64,000 nt of DNA, taken from NCBI GenBank assembly GCA_019638775.1, contig JAHBTD010000004.1, forward strand, positions 124,001 through 188,000, written 5' to 3'. The stretch is from Fimbriimonadaceae bacterium. GTDB taxonomy: Bacteria; Armatimonadota; Fimbriimonadia; Fimbriimonadales; Fimbriimonadaceae. Shown here piece after piece: positions 23,542-31,739 of the stretch (the first letter of the stretch is position 1; the number at the start of each line of letters is the position of its first letter). The notes under the pieces were generated by a model. That model searched no databases. It saw nothing but the letters and a program-made list of their open reading frames with translations, and was not told the origin of the DNA. A program made the position numbers and the translations under genes.

Positions 23542-24108
23542 GTGGGTGATCGTGGTTATCGAAGTGAATACCGACATTGGAAGAACTGGGGACAAGGTGG
23601 CTCTTGCGTGTTCATAACCAGTACCACTCTTGACTTCGGAGAGGTCTTTGTCAGACCAGAAACGAAGCAGATCGTCCTGGAATCGATTATTCGCCAGCAC
23701 CAGATCCGGAACGCGATTCTTGATGCCTACGTTGTGATGTCCAATCACATTCACCTTCTGACTCGTTTACCGGAAGAGATCTCTGTAAGCCGATTCGTTC
23801 AGCGACTGAAGATAGATTGTTCACGGCGGGTGCTGCCCACTTTGACGCCTCGGGAAGTCCAACTACTCTCCAGGCAGTCCGGGCTGGACAATCGTAAGCT
23901 ATGGCAAAGAAGTTTCCGAAGTGTAGTTATTCTTAGTGAGACGACGCACCGTCAGAAAATGAGCTACATTCACACGAATCCTGTTCGGGCTGAACTGGTC
24001 GCCTTGCCTGAGGAATATCACTGGTCAAGCTCGCGATTGCTTTGTGAAGGGAAATGGTCGGAGGAACGAGGGTTGATGGACTCGTTGCCTATTGTCTCTC
24101 TCGACTGA
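23542..24108 (+). CDS. REP-associated tyrosine transposase (RAYT)
   Basis: 188 residues of the Y1 transposase superfamily, IS200-like but of the RAYT branch. The metal-binding HUH pair is in SNHIHLL (His 69 and 71), and the catalytic Tyr is in SYIHTNPVRA (Tyr 142), preceded by LWQRSF. The start codon is GTG, and the N-terminus RHWKNWGQGG is typical of this branch. RAYTs are single-copy, vertically inherited and cut single-stranded REP hairpins. REP hairpins with a CCCTCC...GGAGGG stem flank this gene on both sides, so the gene and its substrates appear together. It looks intact. Confidence 0.88.
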   Translation: MGDRGYRSEYRHWKNWGQGGSCVFITSTTLDFGEVFVRPETKQIVLESIIRQHQIRNAILDAYVVMSNHIHLLTRLPEEISVSRFVQRLKIDCSRRVLPTLTPREVQLLSRQSGLDNRKLWQRSFRSVVILSETTHRQKMSYIHTNPVRAELVALPEEYHWSSSRLLCEGKWSEERGLMDSLPIVSLD

Positions 24109-24292: not shown

Positions 24293-27200
24293 CTAGCTAC
24301 ACCCACTCGTGCTTCCACAACTCATACACTTTAGACACACGCCGTTCCGGACCAAAGTAAAGGCCCCGCATTCGTTGCACGGGTCGCCTTCGTACCCTTT
24401 CAGGCGAGCCTCCCGGATCTTGTCGGCGACGCCCGATTGGGGTTGAGCCGTCGGTTGGACTGCCGTCAGTTGAGAGATTGAGACCGTTTCTGGCTGGGCA
24501 GCGGTGCTGGTGACGATGGCAGAGCGGGCGACCGTGGCGCTATTATCTCCACCCCCACCCCTTCCCTCCCCCGTCGACGGGGAGGGTGACGAATGACCTT
24601 GAGTTGAGGAGGCAGCACCCTCACGGGCCTCTCCCACTGAGGAAGAGGAACCTCGATCTTCAATGCTTTGAGCGGAGGGTTCAGAACCGTTCGATTCGCC
24701 ACGGTCAAAGCCTGCCGAATCGTGCGACTCTCGCGTGATGCCGGGCACGTGCCCTTCCACATCACCACCATCCTCTTCGTCATCAAAGTCAGGATCGTTG
24801 TCCGGTCGCCCGACTGTGTCGCCGCGCAGGTCTTCCGGCTTCACTTGGACCAGATCGTTCCGTCCCAGATAGCTAAAGGCGAGTTCGCGGAAGATGTAGT
24901 CGATCACCGACGTGCTCATCTTGATATTCTCGTGGCCCTGCACTGAACCGTTCGGCTCGAAGCGGGTGAAGACGAACGCCTCGGCATACTCTTCCAGCGG
25001 CACACCGTACTGCAAGCCCAGCGAGATTGCGATAGCGAAGCAGTTCATGAGCGACCGGAAAGCGGCGCCCTCGCGGTGCATATCGATGAAGATTTCACCC
25101 AGTGCGCCGTCTTCATATTCGCCCGTTCTCAGGTAGACCTTGTGCCCGCCGACCCTCGCCTTTTGCGTGTAGCCCCGCCTTCGAGAAGGCAACGGACGAC
25201 GCTTGGCGATGTATCGGTAGACCAGCTTTTGCGCGGTCTGACGGATGATCTCGTGTTGAGAAATCTCTTCGCTCTCGTTCTCAAGCTCGCCTGAACCGTC
25301 GATTGAGGCTTCTAAAATGGCCGCGGCGGCATCGTCGGTACTTGCGTTCAGCGGTTGGCTGAGCTTGCTGCCGTCGCGATACAGCGCGTTGGCCTTGAGG
25401 CAGAGCTGCCAAGACAGCCAATAGGCATTGCTGACGTCTTCGATGGTGGCGTCGCCAGGGAGGTTGATGGTCTTGGAGATAGCCCCGCTGAGGAATGGCT
25501 GAGATGCGCCCATCATGCGAATATGGCCTTCGGCGCTGATGTAGCGCTTGCCCTTCTTGCCGCACTTGTTTGCGCAGTCGAAGACCGGATAGTGCTCCAC
25601 CTTCAGGTGCGGAGCGCCCTCAATGGTCATCGCGCCGCAAACGTACTCGTTTGCCGCCTCGACCTCTTCTTTGCTAAAGCCCAATTCGGTGAGCATGTCG
25701 AAGCTCCAGTCATTGAGCTGAGCATCGGTAAAGCCCAGCGCATCACGGCAGAAGTCTTCGCCGAGGGTGAACTTGTTGAAGACGAATTTGAGTTCAAACG
25801 CGTTCTCCAAGGCTTCTTCCAGCTTCTCGATGACCTCGGGAGTGAAGCCCTTGGCGGTGAGCGTTTCGTGATTGATGACGGGTGCGCCCTTAAGCGTTTT
25901 GCGGCCGAGGCAGTAGGCGATAATCTCCTCACCTTGCTCCTTTGTGTAGCCCAGATTCTTGAGCGCGACGGGGAGCGACTGGTTAATGATCTTGAAATAA
26001 CCGCCACCGGCAAGCTTCTTGAATTTGACGAGGGCGAAGTCCGGTTCGACTCCGGTCGTGTCGCAGTCCATGATGAGGCCGATCGTGCCTGTGGGGGCGA
26101 GAACGGTGACCTGGGCGTTTCGGTATCCGTGGGCTTCGCCAAGCTCAACCGCACGGTCCCACGCATTCCTAGCCGCCCTAAGCATATCGACGGGGCACTC
26201 GTCCGGGTCGATCCCAACTGGGGTGATCGTGAGGCCTTCGTATTCGTCTTTGGGCGCGTTGTAGGCGGCTCTTCTGTGGTTGCGCATGACGCGGAGCATG
26301 TGCTCCTTGTTTCGCGAGTAGCCCCGGAATGTGCCGACTTCGGCCGCCATTTCGGCGCTCGTGGCGTAGGACTCGCCGCCCATCACCGCCGTCAGCGCTC
26401 CGCAGATCGCGCGGCCTTGTGGGCTGTCGTAAGCGATGCCCATCTGCATGAGCAATGCGCCGATGTTTGCATAACCCAGGCCAAGCGTTCGGAACTCGTA
26501 GCTGAGTTCAGCGATCGACTTCGACGGGAACTGCGCCATGAGGACGGAAATCTCCAGCACCATCGTCCAAAGTCGGGTTGCGTGGATGTAACCGTTCATG
26601 TCGAACTCGCCCTTTTCTGGGTCGTAGAATCGGGTGAGGTTCATGGAGGCGAGGTTGCAGGCCGTGTCGTCGAGGAACATATACTCGCTGCACGGGTTGC
26701 TAGCGTTGATGCGACCGTCAGCCGGGCATGTGTGCCACTCGTTGATGGTGCTGTCGTACTGCAGGCCAGGGTCGGCGCAGGACCATGCCGAGAAGCAGAT
26801 GTCGTCCCAAAGCTCGCGCGCGCTGACAGTTTTGTGAACCTTGCCGTCTACTCGGCGCTTCAGTTCCCAATCGGTGTTGTTTTCAACGGCGAAAAAGAAT
26901 TCGTTAGGCACCCGAACGGAGTTGTTCGAATTCTGTCCGCTCACGGTGATGTACGCTTCGCTTTCGTAGCCAGTGTCGAAGGTTGGGAAGTCGATGCCGG
27001 TGAATCCCATCTCGGCGAGTTGGATAACGCGCTGAATGTAGTTGACGCTGACGCCGTAAAGTTTGGCTTCGGCGATAGCTTTGCGAAGGTCGGCGTTCTT
27101 GCGAGGGTTGAATTTATCTGCTTCGTTCCCTTCTCCTGAACGTCCAGGTGCCTCAACGCCTGACGCCGAATGGCACGCCTTCATGATTGCATTCAGGTGC

Positions 27201-28096
27201 AGGTTATTGAGCTGCGAACCGGTGACCAAAGCGGCGACTTTTTGCTCTTCTTTCACCTTCCAGTTGATGAACGTGTCGATATCTGGATGGTCCATGTCCA
27301 GACAAACCATCTTCGCCGCGCGACGGGTGGTTCCGCCGGATTTGATGGCTCCGGCGCTGCGGTCGCCGACCTTGAGGAAGCTCATCAGACCGCTGGATTT
27401 TCCACCACCGCTGAGCTTTTCGTTCTCGCCGCGAATCTTGGAAAAATTCGTGCCGACTCCCGAGCCGTACTTGAAGATTCGGGCTTCACGGGTCCAGAGG
27501 TCCATGATTCCGCCCTCGTTCACGAGGTCGTCTTTCACGCTGAGGATAAAGCAGGCGTGGGGCTGAGGCCGCTCATAAGCGTTTGCGCTTTTCATGAGCT
27601 TTTTGGAATCGGGATCGACGTATTGGTGTCCCTGTGCGTTGCCGGTGATGCCGTAAGCAAAGTGCAGGCCGGTGTTGAACCATTGCGGGCTATTCGGGGC
27701 GGCATATTGCATGGCGAGCATGTAGCTCAGCTCATCGTAAAACGCTTGCGCGTCCTCGTCGGTATCGAAATAGTTGTACTTTTGCCCCCAATACCGCCAG
27801 CACCCTGCCAGCCGGTGGAAAACTTCACGCGAATCTGTCTCGCAGTCGGCGTCCTCTTTTGTCCATTCGCTTAGGTTGGCTAGTGTTTTATCGCCCTCTT
27901 TCAACCCTGCTTTGCGGAAGTATTTTTGAGCAAGGATGTCGGTGGCAACCTGCGACCAATGGGACGGCACCATAACCTTTTCCATAAGGAATACGGTGCT
28001 TCCGTCGGTGTTCTTTATCTCGCTTTTTCGCGGTTCAAACTTAATCCCAGAATAGGGGCTTTGCCCAGCTTTTGTATAGTAACGCGCAATCTTCAT
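24293..28096 (-). CDS. nrdJ: Vitamin B12-dependent (class II) ribonucleotide reductase
   Basis: 1267 residues. Reduces ribonucleotides to deoxyribonucleotides in the cytoplasm using adenosylcobalamin. The catalytic core is shown by [23 protein letters not shown], the cysteine-containing [21 protein letters not shown] and [20 protein letters not shown]. The C-terminus has a Cys-rich finger ([10 protein letters not shown]...CLKCMSCG). Residues about 1145-1185 are a low-complexity Gly/Ser/Glu insert encoded by a palindromic repeat (see separate entry). The gene follows nrdR by 30 bases on the same strand, so the two share the promoter at about 28700. No cobalamin riboswitch was seen. Confidence 0.95.
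24549..24651. repeat. Palindromic repeat inserted in frame in nrdJ
   Basis: Within the nrdJ coding sequence lie CCCTCCCCCGTCGACGGGGAGGG at 24564-24586 (given here as two near-perfect arms around GTCGAC), the block GCACCCTCAC, and CTCTCCCactGAGGAAGAG at about 24634-24650. The same order of blocks occurs in the intergenic element at 29337-29449. It encodes a Ser/Gly/Glu-rich stretch ([29 protein letters not shown]) between the core and the C-terminal Cys finger. Confidence 0.6.
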
Positions 28097-28126: not shown

Positions 28127-28636
28127 CTAGTTTTTGTGCACCTGTTCCACCAGCTCGGTGCGCGGCTGTTTTCCGCCTGTCGGCTCCGCGCGGTCCATGT
28201 GCGACACAATCCGCTTGAAGTCATCGACGGTATCAAACTTTCGATAAACGCTGGCGAAACGGATGTACGCCACGGTGTCGAGCCTTTCTAGCTCGGCCAT
28301 GACGCGCTCGCCTACCTCTTCGGAAGACACTTCGTCTTCAAACTCTTGGAAGAGGTCGCGTTCGACCCGCTCGGCAGCGGCACGGATGGCTTCGGCGCTG
28401 ACAGGGCGCTTGCCTGCGGCGATGGCCATTCCGTTGAGCACCTTTTCGCGTTGGAACTCTTCGCGCGTTTTATCGCGCTTCACCACAAAAAGGCGCGGCA
28501 TTTCGGGGGCTTCGAACGTCGTGAATCTACGTTCGCACAAAGTGCACTCACGTCGGCGACGGATCGCTTCTCCGTCCCTTGCCGGTCTGGAATCAAGCAC
28601 TTTCTGGTCGGCATTGCCGCAAAACGGACACTTCAC
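28127..28636 (-). CDS. nrdR: Transcriptional repressor NrdR
   Basis: 169 residues. Nucleotide-sensing repressor of ribonucleotide reductase genes. An N-terminal zinc ribbon (MKCPFCG ... CTLCERRFTTFE, with two CxxC pairs) precedes the ATP-cone domain (LFVVKRDKTREEFQREKVLNGM). Length and architecture match the family. The start is GTG at 28636, directly before KCPFC. Its position upstream of nrdJ on the same strand fits autoregulation of the pair. Confidence 0.95.
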   Translation of the reverse strand: MKCPFCGNADQKVLDSRPARDGEAIRRRRECTLCERRFTTFEAPEMPRLFVVKRDKTREEFQREKVLNGMAIAAGKRPVSAEAIRAAAERVERDLFQEFEDEVSSEEVGERVMAELERLDTVAYIRFASVYRKFDTVDDFKRIVSHMDRAEPTGGKQPRTELVEQVHKN

Positions 28637-29452: not shown

Positions 29453-30520
29453 TTACAGAACAGCCAATCTGTCTCGAAAGAACTCTGCCCGATCGCGCTG
29501 AGCGTCTTCTTCTGAGGTCTTCCCTCGTAATTCAAGAGTCGTCAGCCAGCTATCGACCTCGCGGTGCGACCCTGGGAATCCGGGCAAACCCTCCGCCGCC
29601 GCCCAGCGAACCCAGGTTAAGACGCGAAGCGCGTGGGCAAGCGTGAGCCGCTGCGAAGTCACGGCAAACTTTGCTGCCGCGCTTGCTTTGTTGTAGAGCT
29701 CTTCGTGGCTGATCGCAACTCGGGCCTGCCGCTCCTTCTCTGCAAGATAAGCGATAGCCCCTTCATATTCGGGGAGGCGGTCGCTCGTCGTTGAAATCTG
29801 CACAAATGCCCCGACGGCTCGGCTCGACTCTCCAAAGAGGCCACGAACGACAACCCCATTCTCGGCCATCGCCCGAAGTATTTGTGGCAACTCCTTGTTT
29901 TGGGCGAGCCCGATCAGGTGAAACATCGACGATACACGCACTCCCATTCCACAGTTGAACGGGCTCGTGCTCAAGAACCCAAACTTGGGAGACCAAGCAA
30001 ATGTCAGCTTCGTTTCCATTGCCGCCAGCAATTGATGCGCCGCCGCGTAGGCATATTCAAACGTCCAGCCGGGAGTCAGCGCCTGTAACCGAAGGTGGTC
30101 CTCTTCATTGACCATGATGCTGACCATGCGACGGGGATCGAGGAGAACCGCGCGTCCGGGCTCGCGCCAGTGGAATTCTGGAGACACAAGCCGACAGCCG
30201 ACGAGATATTCCCTCTCCGCCGGGCTGAGATCCTTCATGACTTCGAATGCAGAGGCGGCATAGTTGGGCTCATCTTCCCACTTGGGCGTGGGAGCAGTGA
30301 CCTTTCTTAATGCGTCCGTGAGCTCTTTCTGAATCGCCTTAAGTTCGTCGGGGTCGGCATGATTCGGAAAAAAATGTCCTTGCAGATTGCGCATAAGGCG
30401 AACGCGCGAGCTTAGAATGACATCGGTTTGTGGCGCTTCGGCGTCGAGCCAGGCAGGTGGGGGCATCGACTTGAGCACCATCACGCGCCAAGATTCAGAC
30501 TCTGAGCGCATGCGTGGCAT
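29453..30520 (-). CDS. mcsB: Divergent McsB-like protein arginine kinase
   Basis: 355 residues, the usual McsB length. McsB phosphorylates arginines on proteins, marking them for Clp proteolysis. The phosphagen-kinase fold is recognisable: SSRVRLMRNLQGHFFPN near the N-terminus, NEEDHLRLQAL with the conserved Glu, and a GLFGESSRA block. However, where the family has the signature C-P-[ST]-N-[ILV]-G-T, this protein reads SPFNCGMG, so the catalytic Cys is a Ser. Activity is therefore uncertain. No mcsA, ctsR or clpC is adjacent; upstream lies the flagellar operon on the same strand. Start uncertain; ATG at 30520 used. Confidence 0.85.
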   Translation of the reverse strand: MPRMRSESESWRVMVLKSMPPPAWLDAEAPQTDVILSSRVRLMRNLQGHFFPNHADPDELKAIQKELTDALRKVTAPTPKWEDEPNYAASAFEVMKDLSPAEREYLVGCRLVSPEFHWREPGRAVLLDPRRMVSIMVNEEDHLRLQALTPGWTFEYAYAAAHQLLAAMETKLTFAWSPKFGFLSTSPFNCGMGVRVSSMFHLIGLAQNKELPQILRAMAENGVVVRGLFGESSRAVGAFVQISTTSDRLPEYEGAIAYLAEKERQARVAISHEELYNKASAAAKFAVTSQRLTLAHALRVLTWVRWAAAEGLPGFPGSHREVDSWLTTLELRGKTSEEDAQRDRAEFFRDRLAVL

Positions 30521-30665: not shown

Positions 30666-31739
30666 TTACTGCTTCTTCCTCACGTCTCCGATCGTTCGAT
30701 ACACATAAGCCAGCACTTCTGCGACAGCGTTGAAGAGGTCGCGCGGAACGAAGTCGCCTACTTCACACTTTTTGTAGAGTTGACGCGCAAGCGGAGGGTT
30801 GGGGATGATCGGCACCTTGTTCTCGGCGGCGATCTCTCGAATCTTCAAGGCAAGATAGTCTTGGCCTTTTGCGACTACTTGTGGGGCGTGCATCTTCCCC
30901 GGCTCGTACTTGATTGCGATAGAAAAGTGAGTTGGGTTCGTAATGATCGCATCTGCGGTTGCCACCGACTGCTTCATTCGGCTTTTGGCGAGCTTTCGCA
31001 TTCGCTGCATTCTTGCTCCCCGCATTTCGGGGGAAGACTCCATCTCTCGATACTCCTGCTTTAGCTCTTCCTTAGTCATCATGAGCTGCTTGTTGACCTG
31101 CTTGCGCTGGAAGAAGTAGTCGATCGCACCCAAGACAAGCCAGACCATCGTGATGCGAATGAGCATCATCTTCAGAACTTCTCCGACAACCCCGAGTGCA
31201 CCAGCGGGTGGCAACGATGAAATCGATACGAGTCGGGGCCATTGTGATGCGATAGCAGTGTAGGCGATATAGCCAAAGACCGAGCACTTTGCCGTCGCCT
31301 TCAGCCCTTCCATAACGATGGTGCGTGAAAAGAGCCGCTTGGCCCCTTTCATGGGGCTGATCTTCGAAAAGTTAGGCTTCATCGCCTCTGGGCTGATGAC
31401 GAACCCGACTTGAGCAAAATTTGCAACGAGACCGGCAACAATCGCGGTGAGCAAGAAAGGAGCCATCGCCACGACGGCTGGCTGTGCCGAATCCCAAAGA
31501 TAACCCCAGAGCGTTGACGCATGGACATCCGAGGGGATGTTCCCAATCGACCGGTTCATGCTGAACATCAGGGCCTGGCCAATTCGGGCGACTGTAAAGG
31601 GGAGCACAATCACAAAGGCGATCAGAACGATGGCATTCGTTGTGTCGCTGGACTTGGCAACGGTTCCCTTTTTACGTGCGTCGGTACGACGCTTTGGAGT
31701 CGCCTCCTCTGTTCTTTCCTGACCCATCGTTTCCGACAT
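30666..31739 (-). CDS. flhB: Flagellar export gate protein FlhB
   Basis: 357 residues. Membrane component of the flagellar type III export apparatus that switches substrate specificity. Four transmembrane helices follow a hydrophilic start (ERTEEATPKRRTDARKKG, typical of FlhB), then the cytoplasmic domain with the autocleavage motif NPTH (TNPTHFSIAIKY, about residue 265) and PLARQLYKKCEVGD. Last gene of the operon, four bases after fliR. FlhA, its usual partner, is not in the window. Confidence 0.95.
   Translation of the reverse strand: MSETMGQERTEEATPKRRTDARKKGTVAKSSDTTNAIVLIAFVIVLPFTVARIGQALMFSMNRSIGNIPSDVHASTLWGYLWDSAQPAVVAMAPFLLTAIVAGLVANFAQVGFVISPEAMKPNFSKISPMKGAKRLFSRTIVMEGLKATAKCSVFGYIAYTAIASQWPRLVSISSLPPAGALGVVGEVLKMMLIRITMVWLVLGAIDYFFQRKQVNKQLMMTKEELKQEYREMESSPEMRGARMQRMRKLAKSRMKQSVATADAIITNPTHFSIAIKYEPGKMHAPQVVAKGQDYLALKIREIAAENKVPIIPNPPLARQLYKKCEVGDFVPRDLFNAVAEVLAYVYRTIGDVRKKQ

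Follow-up and report, generated by a model that had tools for sequence, protein, structure and literature searches.

The window analysed here, a stretch of 64,000 nucleotides from a Fimbriimonadaceae bacterium, carries on its reverse strand (positions 29453-30520) a gene whose 355-residue product is McsB by descent and by fold, with serine at the position of the catalytic cysteine. Whereas the first-pass annotation had taken the gene as one odd case, the serine is a trait of most of the phylum Armatimonadota. From the alignments, tree and gene inventories described below we consider it probable, at roughly 0.6, that the protein is an active, McsA-dependent protein-arginine kinase that works without a thiolate; the gene is the Armatimonadota form of McsB, most likely still phosphorylating protein arginines. 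To our knowledge, almost all guanidino kinases have cysteine at this position, and in work on McsB the Cys-to-Ser exchange has served as a kinase-dead control. A literature search found no paper on McsB in Armatimonadetes, nor any on a natural McsB lacking the cysteine.

An McsB homologue with serine at the catalytic position

The open reading frame starts with ATG about 20 residues ahead of the catalytic core. Its product gives a single Pfam match, to PF00217 (E 7.7e-37), and the solved sequences closest to it carry the annotation protein-arginine kinase, McsB, among them 8wtb (E 4.9e-37). An AlphaFold model made from a 26-sequence alignment (mean pLDDT 86.8, pTM 0.86) matches McsB 6tv6 with Z 35.4 and rmsd 2.8 over 325 of 355 residues, and because this match to B. 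subtilis McsB is so extensive we assign the protein both a catalytic and a C-terminal dimerisation domain, the fold found in McsB of Bacillus subtilis, Geobacillus and Staphylococcus aureus (6tv6, 6fh1-3, 8gqd, 8wtb). Pfam, the PDB matches and the model thus all bear out the initial description of the product as McsB-like. A phage origin of the gene was rejected, there being no PHROG match. McsB open frames much longer than 360 residues occur in three other loci of the phylum (L100, with 592 residues, L022 and L085) and may reflect N-terminal extensions or fusions.

The phosphagen kinases, including arginine kinase (C271A structure 1sd0), share with the window protein the catalytic domain and the guanidinium- and ATP-binding residues. 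Arginine kinases match it in sequence and match its model at Z about 20, and neither mcsA nor clpC is linked to mcsB in the window's family, all of which would suit a small-molecule guanidino kinase of the phosphagen type in place of a protein kinase. We regard this as very improbable: the protein matches McsB at full length, with the dimerisation domain at the C-terminus included (325 residues at Z 35), the N-terminal phosphagen kinase domain is absent according to Pfam, and McsB co-occurs with McsA. The cysteine loss also differs in kind, being natural here and engineered in the arginine kinase.

Ser186 (codon AGC, 29963-29965, reverse strand) aligns exactly on the catalytic cysteine, Cys167 of B. 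subtilis McsB and Cys271 of arginine kinase, which upholds the replacement originally read from the window alone. It lies within F-L-S-T-S186-P-F-N-C-G-M-G-V-R, so that the phosphagen-kinase signature C-P-[ST]-N-[ILV]-G-T reads S-P-F-N-C-G-M, with the four differing positions counted before (C to S, [ST] to F, [ILV] to C and T to M).

An alignment with McsB homologues had been proposed as a check on whether serine is general in the clade, and it is: among 89 distinct Armatimonadota rows the position holds Ser in 78, Cys in 6, His in 4 and Asp in 1, and every one of the 35 rows sampled from the window's family, which has about 50 further members, has Ser. Among named relatives the closest, L126-L129, belong to the Armatimonadetes, which would place the window's organism in that phylum. 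Both a sequencing error at the Ser186 codon and the refuting case named at the outset, close relatives that all have Cys, were rejected on the strength of these 35 family rows. In other phyla, Cys is present in 76 of 76 named McsBs among the 80 best matches listed, and rare exceptions may exist elsewhere; these 76 come from Bacillota, Verrucomicrobiota, Planctomycetota, Gemmatimonadota, Omnitrophota, Aerophobetes, Fibrobacteres and Actinomycetota.

PF00217 is found in 169 of the 291 phylum genomes; within the order the count is 99 of 113, and within the family 81 of 85. Almost every phylum genome that has PF00217 carries one copy, and in the window's genome it is matched by the 29453-30520 gene alone. 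On this ground we rejected a second, active paralogue with Cys in the window's genome, and because single copies are so general the Ser-McsB is not the pseudokinase partner of an active paralogue. A pseudogene was likewise rejected, the open frames being intact and the catalytic residues invariant.

A tree built without the trait column recovers a Ser clade with support 99 that contains 78 rows (75 Ser, 1 His, 1 Asp and 1 Cys), and the whole tree needs six changes at the catalytic position. On this tree the Ser clade is a single, old one, the serine having been carried since an early ancestor. Of the Ser rows, 39 use an AGY codon and 39 a TCN codon, and the tree needs at least seven AGY/TCN switches inside the Ser clade. 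Since each switch needs either another residue in between or a double change, serine seems to have been kept or restored by selection, and the serine itself looks to be under selection. The Cys row nested in the Ser clade (L045) has the full CPTN motif and may represent a Ser-to-Cys return or a transfer.

The substitution is the same, and at the same position, as in the B. subtilis C167S laboratory mutant, from which the phylum's serine differs in being an old wild type, apparently selected and accompanied by surrounding changes. The mutant is reported to be kinase-inactive, yet it still serves as an adaptor in the degradation of MgsR (PMC7235348). Because of this mutant, the main rival to an active kinase is a kinase-dead adaptor, a pseudokinase that would bind ATP and client arginines and deliver the clients to ClpC without phosphate transfer. 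We hold this to be unlikely, while giving it serious weight; a serine that looks selected and not drifting already speaks against it.

Active-site residues and the phosphoarginine pocket

Apart from the serine, none of the residues R39, R41, R44, E140, D141, H142, R144, N189, G191, R195, R226 and E231 varies among the 97 phylum rows, and R144, R195, R226 and E231 stay fixed in all 165 rows once the other-phylum matches listed are included. On the reverse strand of the window, R39, R41 and R44 (within SSRVRLMR, 30389-30406) correspond to R29, R31 and R34 of B. subtilis McsB; the NEEDHLR block (30089-30109) contains the guanidinium glutamate E140 together with H142 and R144 (B. subtilis R125); N189, G191 and R195 (R176) follow Ser186 at 29936-29956; and the segment from R226 (R207) to the second guanidinium glutamate, E231 (E212), occupies 29828-29845. 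The window protein therefore shares with McsB the phosphate-binding arginines and both guanidinium glutamates; glutamate had previously been noted as kept in the NEEDH and GESS regions, and to this can be added all of the active-site arginines. In B. subtilis McsB, R29, R31, R34, R125, R176 and R207 are essential for kinase activity (PMC7235348), and in arginine kinase two glutamates and the cysteine hold the substrate guanidinium (PMC11075012). Because these residues are invariant at 30-50% overall identity, we would not expect a catalysis-free protein to have kept both glutamates and all the phosphate arginines, which argues against the kinase-dead adaptor.

The immediate surroundings of the serine have changed. 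Of the Cys rows, 96% have Thr at +2 and 96% have it at +6, and both positions are free in Ser rows, which indicates that the site has been remodelled locally. The hydroxyl at +2 is what tunes the thiolate in creatine kinase, and release of the +2 position would fit an active site that no longer holds one. The window protein does have a cysteine four residues past Ser186 (Cys190), and a displaced cysteine such as this one might in principle take over the role. Only 11 of the 78 Ser rows, however, have Cys at +4, and in every column its share of the Ser rows stays at or below about 28%, leaving this explanation extremely improbable.

Beyond the serine and the lost threonines, the window protein departs from McsB in the C-terminal domain, where McsB holds a phosphoarginine receptor pocket, R337-D338-x-x-R341-A (PMC8370763, PMC7235348). 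The window pocket reads A340-Q-R-D-R344-A: R344 (equivalent to R341) is kept, and A340-Q341 (29498-29503, reverse strand) stand where McsB has the R337-D338 pair. Of the 82 Cys rows (which include the other-phylum matches listed), 63 have the pair, as against 3 of 83 non-Cys rows, the remaining 80 lacking it. An ancestry-free test of the +2 Thr and of the R-D pair against Cys was underpowered, with only 2-3 independent contrasts, and was not significant, so both associations are read as patterns and not as proof.

These observations bear on the other function first proposed for the gene, that of a phosphoarginine reader. The domain that carries the receptor pocket in McsB (PMC8370763) is present in the window protein, as such a reader would need. 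Mutation of R337-D338 nevertheless destabilises phosphoarginine-dependent McsB multimers (PMC8370763), and with the receptor pair of McsB missing the proposal is weak, finds no support at the known receptor site and seems to us very improbable. Loss of the pair can also be counted in favour of the kinase-dead adaptor, since it would suit a cell that has stopped making phosphoarginine.

Because the protein fails at the catalytic cysteine, at the receptor pocket and at the NCBIfam equivalog NF053707 (178 bits, under the 500-bit cut-off), we file it as an McsB variant and not as a proven protein-arginine kinase.

McsA, ClpC and the dispersed operon

Outside the window's order, a gene row of ilvE, mcsA (a short zinc-finger gene), mcsB and clpC is common to Ser, His and Cys lineages, and Ser- and His-mcsB are often still found in this operon; in other families of the phylum Ser-McsB thus often sits between mcsA and clpC, the order of known McsB systems. 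That clpC adjoins mcsB in many Ser lineages is also what a kinase-dead adaptor would predict. The operon-linked short gene encodes four CxxC motifs, and a profile of it has McsA 8wtb_B as its best solved match (E 7.8e-27), followed by the zinc finger 8gqd_E, the chains of the known McsA activator. A UVR tail is present on 4 of 4 McsAs beside Cys-McsB (L096, L072, L064 and L066, all Cys-McsB lineages) and on 0 of 13 beside Ser- or His-McsB.

Both partners also exist in the window's genome. The profile of operon-linked McsAs identified a mini-McsA of 97 residues, missed by a UVR search alone, a few bases downstream of ilvE (G000:C2:507331-507621, equivalent to L206:5332-5622, reverse strand). 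It matches the NCBIfam McsA model with E 2.2e-4, far below the cut-off and over the second finger only, and it has lost the first finger and kept the C-terminal one, CPxCG...GCPxCY. The second McsA zinc finger is reported to contact a loop of McsB, to orient the catalytic residue and to activate McsB (PMC12467219); its retention here argues for catalysis and against the kinase-dead adaptor. ClpC is an 833-residue Clp_N/AAA protein encoded away from mcsB (L104), which falls into one BLAST group with the Clp proteins adjoining mcsB in other families and keeps both N-domain STEHLL/GTEHLL sites; a separate ClpB-like protein of 870 residues is encoded in L105.

Across the 291 phylum genomes McsA is found in 166 and McsB in 169, with both in 157, McsB alone in 12, McsA alone in 9 and neither in 113 (Fisher p 9e-55, uncorrected for ancestry, which accounts for part of the co-occurrence); several of the genomes with one protein alone are incomplete. 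Of 20 sampled loci, 19 keep the ilvE-mcsA pair even though mcsB is no longer beside it, mcsB adjoins or is near flhB in five family loci (the window, L100, L108, L116 and L117), and clpC stands alone in L104, from which we conclude that the old operon broke up. The statement that the gene stands without mcsA, ctsR or clpC is accordingly correct for its neighbourhood, and fails genome-wide for clpC and mini-mcsA, which lie elsewhere.

In the window itself the gene does follow a flagellar operon, as had been described: flhB (30666-31739, reverse strand; PF01312, E 3.6e-119) is the last gene of a same-strand flagellar cluster upstream. The downstream neighbour is nrdR (28127-28636, reverse strand; PF22811, PF03477), and both neighbours are outside the kinase system. 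After nrdR comes a B12-dependent ribonucleotide reductase of 1267 residues (24293-28096, reverse strand; PF08471, PF02867) with a long low-complexity insert ahead of its C-terminal Cys motif, and just past it a Y1 (IS200-like) transposase gene (23542-24108, forward strand). Locus L117 repeats an mcsB-nrdR-reductase-like gene order.

A search for CtsR matched 0 of the 291 phylum genomes and also missed the B. subtilis control genome, which was unmatched for PF00217, Clp_N and CtsR, a pattern suggesting that this genome sequence lacks the ctsR-mcsA-mcsB-clpC operon. The YwlE phosphatase motif CxGNTCRS gave 18 matches in the 291 genomes against 15 for the reversed pattern, which is chance level, and the sole LMW phosphatase of the window's genome is ArsC-like, with CVHNAGRS. 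Because the B. subtilis control gave no match for PF00217 or CtsR, the CtsR and YwlE absences are moderate evidence. The window's genome thus differs from known McsB systems in that neither CtsR nor the YwlE motif was found and in that its McsA has one zinc finger and is unlinked. The missing YwlE motif could be taken, with the lost receptor pair, as a sign that phosphoarginine is no longer made in a kinase-dead system, but the motif is near chance level in the Cys lineages too.

Probable catalysis without the thiolate

An active kinase is favoured because of the glutamate and arginine conservation, the selection on the serine, the single gene copy and the fact that McsA and ClpC have both persisted. 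The points that weigh against it are the inactivity of C167S in B. subtilis, the loss of the +2 and +6 threonines, a YwlE motif no more frequent than chance and the lack of a CtsR match. In favour, the title of Gattis 2004 (via PMC11075012) calls cysteine mutants of arginine kinase partially active. With the other catalytic residues invariant and McsA and ClpC retained, the comparisons fit best with the first of the functions suggested initially, a kinase with altered chemistry.

In such an enzyme the reduced McsA would activate Ser-McsB; R39, R41, R144, R195 and R226 would hold ATP, E140 and E231 would orient and polarise the guanidinium, and Ser186, replaced by His or Asp in some few lineages, would hydrogen-bond the substrate guanidinium in place of the cysteine, after which the arginine-phosphorylated proteins would be handed to ClpC. 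The catalytic activity, the protein substrates and the hand-over to ClpC are predicted, as is an enzyme that would be oxidation-insensitive and slower or differently tuned. A wider reading, in which the whole phylum would use a cysteine-independent, oxidation-insensitive phosphoarginine system built on Ser, His or Asp and a one-finger McsA, with no YwlE-type phosphatase or CtsR, is more tentative, and on present sequence comparisons we put it a little short of even odds.

A serine of early-ancestral age in an otherwise intact catalytic site means either that the thiolate is dispensable or that a natural pseudokinase has kept a full catalytic site, and either outcome bears on the debated role of the cysteine. 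A cysteine-free phosphoarginine system, if true, would call for a revision of the catalytic model now accepted for guanidino kinases, and the predicted activity would extend arginine phosphorylation to a phylum whose 291 genomes gave no CtsR match.

Other residues than serine also replace the catalytic cysteine in the phylum, Asp in L047 and His in L095, L032, L036 and L071, some of them in intact mcsA-mcsB-clpC operons. The Cys, His and Asp sister lineages and the possible Ser-to-Cys return in L045 together amount to a natural mutant series at the catalytic position.
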